48,563 nt of DNA from Roseospira marina (GTDB lineage: Bacteria; Pseudomonadota; Alphaproteobacteria; Rhodospirillales; Rhodospirillaceae). Within the stretch, counting starts at the first letter, position 1; every line of letters starts with the position of its first letter. The notes below the pieces were generated by a model. That model saw nothing but the letters and a program-made list of their open reading frames with translations, had not been told where the DNA came from and searched no databases. Positions 1,733-15,418 of this stretch are shown here, in pieces. The stretch lies in the NCBI RefSeq assembly GCF_014197855.1, contig NZ_JACIGJ010000022.1, forward strand, positions 1-48,563, written 5' to 3'. A program made the position numbers and the translations under genes.

Positions 1733-2830
1733 ATGAGCGTGACGTCCAAAGCCATTGCGGTTGAGGACCTGTATCCGATGCCTCACCAGGGCGTCCACGT
1801 CATCACCACCGAGCTTTTGGCTGCCGTCTACGGCACGGAACCGGATCGCATTCGGCGGAACCATAGTCGGAACGCAGATCGGTTCGTCGAGGGGAAACAC
1901 TTCTTCAAACTGGTGGGCGACGACCTCAAATCGTTTCGCACCCGAGCAGAGGGTCTTAAAGACCCTCTGCTCGGTATCGCAACGAACGTCAACGCTCTGA
2001 CCGTGTGGACCGAACGCGGCGCCGCACGCCACGCCAAGATGCTGGAGACGGATCAGGCGTGGGAGGTGTTCGAGAAACTGGAGGACGCCTACTTCGAACG
2101 TGGTCCCGTCCTCCCCGTTCCGCGACCGAACAGCCCTGACACCAGCGGATATGGCAAGCAGTCCTGCGAGCGGTTCGTTGAAGAGTGCGAGCGGTTGGGC
2201 TTTCGAAACCCCGAGGCCTTCGCCGAGGCCATTGGGTGGCCGAAGTCGAAGCTGTTTCACTACGCGGAAATGCACGCTCTTATTACAAAAGACGACGACT
2301 TTAAGCGTTTTCTTGGTCAGAACTTCGATTTGAAGTATTGGTTTTGGGGGACGCGGCAGTATTCCGAAGATGAGATGGCGCTTCTATATGCCTTGCGGAC
2401 CCTCTCGGAGCCCGACCGCCTTCGCGCTCTCAAGGCTGTGGAACAGGTCTATCGTACACCGGTCGGGCCGGCCTTAACCGACGAAACGGACGATCCATCC
2501 TTGCCGGCGAAAGCGGCGCCCCCACGCACACCGGCGCTGTTCTCCAACCTGACCGGACCGTTTTTCGACGCGCTCGATGAACTGACGGAAGACAAGATAC
2601 CCTGGAACCATTCGCGCGCCCCGAACCTGATCGCCTTCGACCTGATGGAAGTGCGCGACCTGTTCATGGCGAACGGCATCGATGTTGAGATCACACCGCT
2701 CCTATGCCGGGCACTGAAGACGTGTGAGGACCCCGTGTTCCAGGCCGTCAAGCCGGTCAACAGCGCACTCAAGCGCGGCGTGCAAGTGCGGTGTTGGGTG
2801 TTTGAAAAAGCCGGCTCAGTGCGAAGGTGA
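1733..2830 (+). CDS. phage ORF6N-domain regulator/antirepressor (copy 1)
   Basis: A 365-residue protein whose first about 120 residues form an ORF6N-type DNA-binding domain. The TTELLAAVYGTE start, NADRFVEGKHFFKL and the WTERGAARHAKML segment are typical. Such domains occur in phage antirepressors and regulators. The remaining part, about residues 130-365, has no motif I recognise. A GGGGGAG stretch before ATG 1733 serves as ribosome site. The gene lies downstream of the late gene gpD, outside the early operon. Its N-terminal domain is clearly paralogous to the gene at 10833-11600, but the C-terminal parts differ. A perfect 33-bp palindrome lies inside codons 70-81. ORF6N assignment is firm; the regulatory target is unknown. 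Confidence 0.8.
   Translation: MSVTSKAIAVEDLYPMPHQGVHVITTELLAAVYGTEPDRIRRNHSRNADRFVEGKHFFKLVGDDLKSFRTRAEGLKDPLLGIATNVNALTVWTERGAARHAKMLETDQAWEVFEKLEDAYFERGPVLPVPRPNSPDTSGYGKQSCERFVEECERLGFRNPEAFAEAIGWPKSKLFHYAEMHALITKDDDFKRFLGQNFDLKYWFWGTRQYSEDEMALLYALRTLSEPDRLRALKAVEQVYRTPVGPALTDETDDPSLPAKAAPPRTPALFSNLTGPFFDALDELTEDKIPWNHSRAPNLIAFDLMEVRDLFMANGIDVEITPLLCRALKTCEDPVFQAVKPVNSALKRGVQVRCWVFEKAGSVRR
1942..1974. repeat. perfect 33-bp palindrome inside ORF6N gene copy 1
   Basis: Left arm CCGAGCAGAGGGTCTT (1942-1957), single central A at 1958, right arm 1959-1974 exactly complementary. It sits inside codons 70-81 of the ORF6N gene, and the central base is the first base of codon 76 (Lys of a Leu-Lys pair). 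The paralogous gene has a palindrome of the same length, centre and codon phase at 11045-11077, with a different arm sequence. No T-run follows, so it does not look like a simple terminator. Confidence 0.95.
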
Positions 2831-10486: not shown

Positions 10487-10836
10487 CCAAAATTCTAACA
10501 TATCACGTCGGGTCAATGCCGTTCCGCGTCCAGAAACAGCAATGCGTGCCGTTGTTCGTCCTGCGCGACCTGTGCCGGATTCTCGGCTTCTCCGGCGAGG
10601 CGGACGCACTCCGGTACCTGAGGGACCACGCCGACGATCCGGACGATGTGGTGACGGGATGGATCCACGATCCGGCGGAGCCCGCCGAGTCCCCCTTCGT
10701 CGCGGTCGCCCTCTGTTCCGTTTTCGCCCTGTCCTGCGCGCCAAACGCCGTTGGAGCCAATCGGTTCGAGACCGTTCTGGTGACCGAAGCTATGCCCGTT
10801 CTCTTTCACATGAGGATCAAGGAGGCGGTACGATGA
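10483..10836 (+). CDS. Bro-N-like phage regulator
   Basis: A 117-residue protein with the pattern of the BRO N-terminal DNA-binding domain: FRVQKQQCVPLFVLRDLCRI, LGFSGEADALRYLRDH, then the C-terminal VTEAMPVLFHMR. It lacks the C-terminal domain of full antirepressors. It overlaps the methyltransferase stop and the next ORF6N start (both ATGA), so three genes are coupled. A part in overriding repression is a reasonable guess from family and position only. Confidence 0.55.
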   Translation: MTKILTYHVGSMPFRVQKQQCVPLFVLRDLCRILGFSGEADALRYLRDHADDPDDVVTGWIHDPAEPAESPFVAVALCSVFALSCAPNAVGANRFETVLVTEAMPVLFHMRIKEAVR

Positions 10837-11600
10837 ACTCCAGGTCCCTCTCCTCCGTTTCTGTCGAGGACCTTCGCCCCATCACCTACCGGGGCGAACC
10901 GGTCCTGACCACCGAACTCCTGGCCGAGGCCTACGGGACGGACCCAAAGCGGATCCAGAACAACCATGCGCGCAACGCCGACCGCTTCGTGGACGGCAAG
11001 CACCTGTTCAAGATCAGCGGGGAAGAACTTCGCTTGTTCCGGACCCGGTGTGACCCTCTTAAAGAGGGTCACACCGGCATCGCAATGAAGGCGCAGTCGG
11101 CCACGCTTTGGACCGCGCGCGGCGCCGCCCGGCACGCCAAGATGTTGGAGACGGACGCCGCCTGGGAAGTCTTCGAAAAGCTGGAGGATTCCTACTTCGA
11201 CCGCCGGCCGGAAAGCCGGGTGAAGGCCGACGCTCACCTGTTCGTCGGAAGTGGGGAGTACGTCGACGCTCGCCGCGTGCCCAACAGCGCCCGGTTCTGC
11301 GAAGAGGTCGCCCGCCTCGGCTATGAGAGCCCCAAGGCATTTGCCGCTTCGGCCGCCTGGACCGGCTCCAAGCTCTGGTACATCGAGCATGGCAACACCC
11401 TGCCCAGCAAGTCGGAGGACCTGAAGCTGTTGATCGGGCGCGGCTTCGATCTCCGTTATCTGCTGTACGGCGAGCGCACGGTCTCCCGGGCCGAACTGGA
11501 CCTGATCGCCGCCTACCGCGACGGCGACACCGCCGGTGTCCAGCGCATCACGGCCGCTCGGCCGCCGCGCATCACCGACCAGACCAACGGCGAGACCTGA
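10833..11600 (+). CDS. phage ORF6N-domain regulator (copy 2)
   Basis: A 255-residue protein whose N-terminal about 120 residues align closely with the gene at 1733: TTELLAEAYGTDPKRIQNNH, NADRFVDGKHLFKI and WTARGAARHAKMLETDAAWE are shared. The C-terminal part differs and has no recognised motif beyond a helical LLIGRGFDLRYLLYGE stretch, which loosely echoes the FDLKYWFWG of copy 1. ATG 10833 overlaps the Bro-N stop. Codons 71-82 contain a perfect 33-bp palindrome at the position where copy 1 has its own. Such proteins often act as antirepressors. Confidence 0.78.
   Translation: MNSRSLSSVSVEDLRPITYRGEPVLTTELLAEAYGTDPKRIQNNHARNADRFVDGKHLFKISGEELRLFRTRCDPLKEGHTGIAMKAQSATLWTARGAARHAKMLETDAAWEVFEKLEDSYFDRRPESRVKADAHLFVGSGEYVDARRVPNSARFCEEVARLGYESPKAFAASAAWTGSKLWYIEHGNTLPSKSEDLKLLIGRGFDLRYLLYGERTVSRAELDLIAAYRDGDTAGVQRITAARPPRITDQTNGET
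11045..11077. repeat. perfect 33-bp palindrome inside ORF6N gene copy 2
   Basis: Left arm CCGGTGTGACCCTCTT (11045-11060), central A at 11061, exactly complementary right arm 11062-11077. The centre is the first base of codon 77, the Lys of a Leu-Lys pair, the same place as in copy 1. Against copy 1, arm positions 4-7 and 10-12 differ and all seven changes are matched on the other arm. Confidence 0.95.
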
Positions 11601-11906: not shown

Positions 11907-12992
11907 ATGCCTGTCTACCGGATCAAAGGTATCAAGCGGGTGCGGAATCCAAGAACGGGCGCCTACTACCTGTATCACCGAGGGACGGGAAAGCGCCTGC
12001 GAGAAAAGGAGGGTACGGCCGCGTTCCTTGAGGAAGTGGCGGCCCTCGATCGGAACGCGGAGGATAGGCAGTCGGACCCGAAGGCGCCGGCCGGTACATG
12101 GGGCTGGCTGCGCGAACTGTACCTCGCCAGCCCGAAGTATGCCCAGCTCGCGCCGCGCACCCGCAAAAGCTACCGGGCCGTTCTGGACTATCTGGCAGAG
12201 CCCAACCCGGAGCGCCCCGGGAAGGGGATGGACCCGGTTCCCTTGGATCGGATCGACAGCCCGTCCGTCATGCGCCTGCGCGACGCGACGCACGACCGCC
12301 ATGGTTGGCGGCAAGCGAATCTGGTTCTCGCCGTGATTTCGCTCGTGTGGAATTGGGGGCGGCCCTATGGCTACGTCACGGGGTCCAATCCGGCCGAGAA
12401 GGTGCCGCGCATCAAGCGGCCGCGTGACAAACCCGCCGCGAACCGGCCGTGGACGGACGACGAGCTGGCCAGTGTTCTTGCGACGGCACAGACGGGTGTG
12501 CGTGAGGCCGTGGCGCTGGGGGCCTATACCGGCCTTCGCCAGGGCGATGTGCTGGCGCTGCCGTGGTCCGCGATCGAGGACGGTTGGCTCCGGTGCCGGC
12601 AGTCAAAGACCGGCGAAGAGGTTTGGATCCCCGTGCATCGGGACCTTGCCGCGATCCTGGAGCAGGCCGAGCGCCGCGCCACGGTGATCGTCGCCGGCGC
12701 GCGCGACCGGCGGCCGTACAGCGGCGATGGCTTCCGGACGCTGTTCTTTCGCCTGATCCGCAAGCTGGAGGCCGAGGGCCGCATCGGCCAGGGCCTGACG
12801 TTCCATGGTCTGCGGCACGGTCTCGCGACGCGGCTGGCGGACGCCGGCGCGGACGACCGTACCATCGCGGCAATCACCGGCCACAAGCAGGTGTCCATGG
12901 TGCAGCGTTACACCCGCACGGCCGACAAACGGCGCCGCGCCCGGGCGGGAATGGACCTGCTGGAAGGCGGCAAGCCAGAGGACAAGCCGTGA
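11907..12992 (+). CDS. int: phage tyrosine integrase
   Basis: A 361-residue tyrosine recombinase. The N-terminal part is the arm/core-binding region. The catalytic domain shows TGLRQGD (Arg211), HGLRHG (His-x2-Arg), GHKQ (His) and the nucleophile in QRYTRT (Tyr335). This is the complete R-H-R-H-Y set, so the enzyme looks active. It points toward a tRNA-Lys gene and ends 94 bases from it, as expected for insertion at the tRNA 3' end. Together with the AlpA-like gene it forms the recombination module of the prophage. Confidence 0.92.
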   Translation: MPVYRIKGIKRVRNPRTGAYYLYHRGTGKRLREKEGTAAFLEEVAALDRNAEDRQSDPKAPAGTWGWLRELYLASPKYAQLAPRTRKSYRAVLDYLAEPNPERPGKGMDPVPLDRIDSPSVMRLRDATHDRHGWRQANLVLAVISLVWNWGRPYGYVTGSNPAEKVPRIKRPRDKPAANRPWTDDELASVLATAQTGVREAVALGAYTGLRQGDVLALPWSAIEDGWLRCRQSKTGEEVWIPVHRDLAAILEQAERRATVIVAGARDRRPYSGDGFRTLFFRLIRKLEAEGRIGQGLTFHGLRHGLATRLADAGADDRTIAAITGHKQVSMVQRYTRTADKRRRARAGMDLLEGGKPEDKP

Positions 12993-15383: not shown

Positions 15384-15418
15384 CCCGTCTGCGGTGCGAT
15401 GATCGCACCGCAGACGGG
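15384..15418. repeat. perfect 35-bp palindrome between pqiB and pqiC
   Basis: Arms CCCGTCTGCGGTGCGAT (15384-15400) and its exact complement (15402-15418) flank one G. On the minus strand it starts three bases after the pqiB stop. It is followed by CAAGGCC and no T-run in that direction; a short TTTT follows only on the plus strand. It may lower pqiC expression, stabilise the upstream message or bind a protein. Confidence 0.9.

Follow-up and report, generated by a model that had tools for sequence, protein, structure and literature searches.

Palindromes inside phage antirepressor-type genes as likely recognition sites of the domains they encode

The lac operators O2, in lacZ, and O3, at the end of lacI, are repressor operators that lie inside or overlap genes. 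Cluster A mycobacteriophages carry stoperators at many sites per genome, away from promoters, and the palindromic elements of Rickettsia stand in frame and are dispersed over many genes. Regulators of the antirepressor type abound in phages, and for most of them the DNA target is not known. Here we describe two ORF6N antirepressor-type genes of Roseospira marina, each with a perfect palindrome in its coding sequence, within a stretch of 48,563 nucleotides (the window; contig NZ_JACIGJ010000022.1 of assembly GCF_014197855.1, positions 1 to 48,563). Comparison with homologues indicates that the N-terminal domain encoded by each gene very probably recognises the palindrome within that gene as its DNA site.

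The likeness to lac O2 and O3 lies in a regulator's site placed in coding DNA, whereas here the site occupies the codons of the DNA-binding domain itself, keeps to a single place in each family, and changes together with the recognition helix. With the stoperators it shares phage regulator sites distant from promoters, but here the regulator's own gene holds a single strong site, both in the window and in five of six other phages, and many site copies per genome were not found in the window contig or these six phages. Rickettsia palindromic elements likewise are in-frame palindromes tolerated by proteins, but here, among the matches listed, the palindromes are confined to one gene class, with no dispersal in unrelated genes (60 of 60 antirepressor-type). 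As in an intragenic autoregulatory operator, a symmetric site lies inside the regulator's own gene, and covariation suggests that it is cognate to the encoded domain, for gene 1 not independently. A residue-base correlation code, in which specificity residues covary with motif bases, has been described for GntR regulators (PMC4494728), with motifs that reportedly come from regulons, whereas here each gene supplies its own motif. A search of the open-licence PubMed Central literature, with preprints and subscription papers outside its scope, found no description of own-gene palindrome sites.

The features of the two genes are as follows.

1733..2830, plus strand: ORF6N antirepressor-type gene 1, 365 amino acids (Pfam and PHROG match)
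1841..1870, plus strand: putative recognition helix of gene 1, P37-R46, with specificity residues D38 R39 (I) R41 R42 (motif alignment; placed via homology to the modelled gene 2)
1942..1974, no strand: palindrome of gene 1, perfect 16-1-16, half-site GGGTC-TT
10833..11600, plus strand: ORF6N antirepressor-type gene 2, 255 amino acids (Pfam and PHROG match)
10944..10973, plus strand: putative recognition helix of gene 2, model residues 38-47, with specificity residues K39 R40 (I) Q42 N43 (models and covariation)
11045..11077, no strand: palindrome of gene 2, perfect 16-1-16, half-site CCCTC-TT

Both genes belong to the ORF6N family (PF10543; E 1.5e-17 for gene 1 and 2.1e-18 for gene 2, or 64.1 and 66.8 bits against a gathering cut-off of 27.8), carry the PHROG label anti-repressors, and lie in a prophage region where an integrase and P2-type tail genes (GpU, GpD) are also present. 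The palindrome of gene 1 reads CCGAGCAGAGGGTCTT-A-AAGACCCTCTGCTCGG (1942-1974) and that of gene 2 CCGGTGTGACCCTCTT-A-AAGAGGGTCACACCGG (11045-11077); recomputation bore out these two palindromes, reported in an earlier sequence-only reading, and their centres at 1958 and 11061, which are homologous codons, each centre being the first base of the Lys codon in a Leu-Lys pair. That reading's statement that the arms differ at seven of 16 positions, every difference being compensated, holds on comparison of the arms (14 differing bases, 7/7 compensated), and the translations confirm that the encoded peptides, AEGLKDPLL and CDPLKEGHT, differ. From base composition alone, 1.7e-4 palindromes with arms of at least 16 and at most one spacer base are expected in the window.

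Symmetry at this place recurs among homologues of the window type. The segment flanked by the helix ending GxxL and the WTxRGAARHAK motif was compared across 301 loci (4 from the window's own genome; 80, at least 120 and 80 viral stretches; and 17 genome loci). These gave 144 unique regions, of which 124, one for each distinct peptide, entered a synonymous-recoding test. The mean palindrome score of these 124 regions was 9.09, versus 4.60 for synonymous recodings and 4.45 for other windows of the same genes; 95 exceeded their own synonymous control (p<0.05) and 29 did not. Had symmetry stayed at the level of codon-shuffled controls, as the sequence-only reading had allowed, the two palindromes would have been a local oddity, which is not what these homologues show. 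Arm sequences vary widely while pairing is kept, and the centre falls on codon position 1 in 6 of 118 palindromes, on position 2 in 100 and on position 3 in 12. All three reading frames are thus used, and the protein sequence is therefore not likely to be the reason for the palindrome. Of the 60 mismatches at arm position d10 in the commonest frame, 39 fall where full symmetry would create an in-frame stop. Palindromes of their own at the same place occur in Lactococcus phage TP901-1, in Azospirillum phage Cd, in Paenibacillus phage Eltigre (with arms of only 7) and in viral contigs, L305 among them; phage Fostie, one of seven phage records examined, gave no palindrome there.

The sequences show, moreover, that bases d4-d7 of both arms track residues of a helix that the same gene encodes further upstream; in the window genes this helix lies outside the palindrome, some 85 bases ahead of it. 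With helix positions numbered backwards from a conserved Asn, a set of 112 window-type genes (143 minus 20 without the helix motif, 4 with two palindromes and 7 duplicates) was compared over a 21-residue stretch. For d7 to d4 of the left arm the best columns were -2, -5, -5/-1 and -1, with z from 17.7 to 24.2; for the right arm they were -2, -5, -1 and -4, with z from 13.8 to 22.4. When 47 variable columns of the domain were allowed to compete in 123 genes, the best were -2, -5, -1, -1 (left) and -2, -5, -1, -4 (right), all eight of them, for four bases on both arms, inside the helix (z 17 to 28). At equal overall identity, shared helix residues predict half-sites. Specifically, at a domain identity of 0.45-0.60, the 23 pairs with three of three helix residues in common agree at 3.41 of 4 bases, and the 1995 pairs with none in common at 0.94. 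Below an identity of 0.5, pairs sharing at least two helix residues match at 2.02 bases, versus 0.94±0.08 for shuffled helices (maximum 1.15 of 100), a null to be read with the fact that the shuffle does not keep relatedness.

Individual genes illustrate this coupling. The half-site of gene 2 (helix KRIQN, CCCTC, frame 0) resembles those of two viral contigs, L008 and L027 (KNIQN, CCATC/CCCTC or CCCAC, frame 1), and of Acinetobacter locus L091 (KNIQN, CCATC, frame 2); at least one arm reads CCATC or CCCTC in KNIQN/KHIQN viral contigs, in L091 and in Azospirillum phage Cd (KVLQN), which differ from gene 2 in frame or lineage. A Roseospira relative, L006 (VRIRQ, GTATC), agrees with Trabulsiella L093 (VRIRQ) in a different frame. 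Gene 1 (DRIRR, GGGTC) is without an independent partner, its nearest being DYIRK genes (RKGTC), and some helix residue classes are mixed in half-site. The covariation of helix and half-site lends strong support to a role that the sequence-only reading had listed among several, in which the palindrome would be an operator used by the DNA-binding protein within the very gene that encodes it.

Some viral contigs carry tandem 30-bp palindromic units, in all frames. L154, L165 and L220 have three or four of them with differing arms, each adding 10 loop residues. Among tandem genes with a known code, 4 of 9 hold one exactly fitting unit. L062, L175 and L206 encode, in a form missed by the scan, an RLSLSES unit, which is the unit typical of single genes sharing their helix (peptides read by eye).

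In models of gene 2, residues 27-34 and 38-47 form two helices joined by a short turn, a helix-turn-helix-like arrangement, and the covarying K39, R40, Q42 and N43 fall in its second helix. The palindrome encodes residues 71-82, predicted to form the end of helix 63-76 and part of loop 77-88; the mean predicted local distance difference test score of the two models is 67 and 63 for residues 71-80, and 85 and 80 for residues 81-90. The best Foldseek E values were 0.82 and 0.23; fold matches were middling, with DNA-bound winged-helix domains among them, and a sequence search of the PDB gave no match.

The palindrome feature reaches beyond two genes and beyond one family. A survey of 200-249 genomes took at most 30 loci for each family and dropped fragments, genes with stops and identical copies, which left 17 of 22 loci for AntA, 30 of 30 for Bro-N, 29 of 30 for ORF6N, 27 of 30 for Rha, 9 of 11 for P22_AR_N, 20 of 29 for KilA-N and 14 of 17 for ANT. 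Palindromes at p<=0.05 against synonymous controls were found in 12/17 AntA, 12/30 Bro-N, 24/29 ORF6N, 17/27 Rha, 6/9 P22_AR_N and 18/20 KilA-N genes; palindromes rose above the synonymous control in none of the 14 C-terminal ANT domains and in 6 of 97 windows of ordinary phage coding sequence, the background. The significant palindromes keep one relative position per family, lying within 0.05 of the family median in 10/12 (AntA), 10/12 (Bro-N), 23/24 (ORF6N), 17/17 (Rha) and 5/6 (P22_AR_N), with KilA-N as the exception (9/18). The parity of the centre is odd in ORF6N (24/24) and Bro-N (15/15), and even in AntA (12/12), KilA-N (16/19) and Rha (15/18). The roi gene of phage HK022, Rha-like by eye and encoding what we take to be a DNA-binding phage protein, had no palindrome above 6, and none above 5 near the Rha position, when scored without a control. 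In five viral contigs (L345, L346, L352, L367, L376), a C-terminal half 97-100% identical to that of TP901-1 ORF6 is fused to AntA-like N-domains, and the palindrome varies with the N-domain.

Coupling to the helix also appears in some of these families. The test of the TEQG type covered 24 ORF6N genes, with 5 of other subtypes left out: one helix residue determines d4 (Q-A 15/15, R-C 5/5, E-G 4/4; z 14), and the residue four positions earlier goes with d7 of the left arm (K-G 13/13, R-A 8/9; z 13). Viral scans for further genes of this type gave 5 loci and then 0, and the d4 rule held on both arms in five genes outside the discovery set (L463, L543, L565, L566, L568). One row (L473), which shows a different unit of a tandem gene, breaks the rule, and the same check also listed one match outside any ORF6N gene (the second L448 row). 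In TEQG-type genes a single palindrome, TCACAAATTGTGA, yields the peptides SQIVT and VTNCD when read in two frames. For Rha, AntA, KilA-N and Bro-N, the covariation sets drop genes with p>0.1, off-position palindromes or the minority parity. Hand counts in 15 Rha genes gave N-T 9/9, D-G 5/5 and H-C 1/1 at d5, and R-C 10/10, Q or E-G 4/4 and A-T 1/1 at d4, a complete code at both positions in 15 of 15 genes; in AntA (12 genes), KilA-N (16) and Bro-N (15) the covariation is suggestive at most.

Further copies of the sites are few. With 13-base half-sites and at most one mismatch, the window's genome holds, besides the palindromes' own arms, two single-mismatch matches for gene 2 and one for gene 1, and a 23-mer scan of the 48.5-kb contig found no extra copies of the window palindromes. 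When six other phages were scanned with their own 23-mer, a second copy appeared only in Acinetobacter phage TCUAN1 (L326), at 12409-12431, with 20 of 23 bases of its own allele. It lies just 3' of the gene, which ends at 12396, between annotated genes and before a terminator-like hairpin, a placement that supports a role at the level of DNA. Across 297 genes with flanks, TCUAN1 aside, matches of 17-18 of 23 bases were paralogues or at chance level, possibly excepting L158, where a separate inverted repeat, ACAGAGTAACTTCCGGTTACTCTGT, about 5.3 kb from the ORF6N palindrome, resembles the own site at 17 of 23 bases.

A hairpin in the messenger RNA that controls translation or decay, its stem kept and its sequence free, would account for short-loop stems, compensatory changes and the use of all frames, and a part of the pairing data leans that way: at d8-d9 of 84 window-type palindromes, G-U outnumbers A-C by 29 to 12, and a second set of 35-mers, picked for palindromicity so that their pairing rates are inflated, gives 28 versus 3 at d8 and 22 versus 7 at d9. 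The same 35-mers show 3 G-U versus 15 A-C at d3-d7, however, and window-type genes outside d8-d9 have 11 versus 9 (d10 left out). Across 89 genes of six families, 949 stem positions hold 10 G-U, 26 A-C and 25 other mismatches, with a palindrome search that scored G-U and A-C alike. The RNA role that the sequence-only reading had considered has this local G-U excess in its favour; against it, there is no overall G-U preference, and arm bases follow helix residues. We regard it as improbable. Still less probable is that template switching alone repeatedly made a tolerant loop palindromic by copying one arm, without function. Perfect arm copies in some genes fit this idea, as does an encoded loop that looks tolerant in the models and takes tandem units, but recurrence at one place in several families, the background rate in other phage genes and the correlation with a distant helix do not. 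Template switching, also raised by that reading, may be the mutational route that keeps the arms equal; on its own it leaves the link to the helix unexplained.

Two explanations rank lowest, both exceedingly unlikely. For a selfish in-frame palindromic element of the Rickettsia kind, also among the earlier suggestions and now disfavoured, the tandem units in all frames would speak. Against it, the window's genome repeats the arms nowhere else, the three single-mismatch half-sites excepted. Moreover, of 5426 E. coli genomes 659 carry a 37-base unit, at 1243 places in all, and among the matches listed (60 of 665 records) it lies in antirepressor-type genes in 60 of 60 cases. That the site serves a different phage protein as its operator, for instance the CI repressor, would suit genes that lie in temperate-phage regulatory regions, for example behind cI and mor in TP901-1, but the half-sites follow the helix of the same gene, and the AGTTCA-type repeat at the mor end of TP901-1, one of a kind that presumably serves as CI operators, is unlike the ORF6 palindrome.

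The recognition of each palindrome by the domain of its own gene thus remains much the best-supported explanation, and at the level of sequence it draws on a symmetric site, a fixed place, coupling to the helix and few second sites. The N-terminal domain would have a winged helix-turn-helix fold and contact the DNA as a symmetric dimer, its site lying in the codons of a permissive loop (about residues 71-82 of gene 2). Bound protein would limit transcription of its own gene, a negative autoregulation via roadblock or promoter contact, and limiting that gene's expression would be the palindrome's most likely use. With site and domain within about 300 bases, mosaic phages could swap the module without the protein ever being orphaned from its site.

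Two further features of the window's genome are recorded here. A longer perfect palindrome (17-1-17, 15384-15418), between two long minus-strand reading frames, is perhaps a terminator and apparently unrelated to the ORF6N finding. On contig 29 (L003, 11514-11909), the C-terminal half of gene 2 is duplicated at 93% identity in a 143-residue open frame, perhaps a trace of domain exchange or loss.

Taken more broadly, and with less assurance, we think it rather probable that genes with ORF6N, Rha, AntA, KilA-N, P22_AR_N and Bro-N N-domains are self-addressed modules, in which domain and operator form one inseparable stretch of DNA that shuffling never separates, with a recognition code that genome sequences would suffice to reveal; certain conserved peptides, SQIVT and VTNCD of ORF6N for example, would then be reading frames of an operator and not protein motifs. 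If so, the binding specificity of many antirepressor-type proteins would be readable from sequence, and their recognition code testable at once. It would also explain how a mosaic genome swaps DNA-binding domains yet retains control, and it carries a warning that conserved peptides in antirepressor families can be by-products of a DNA site.
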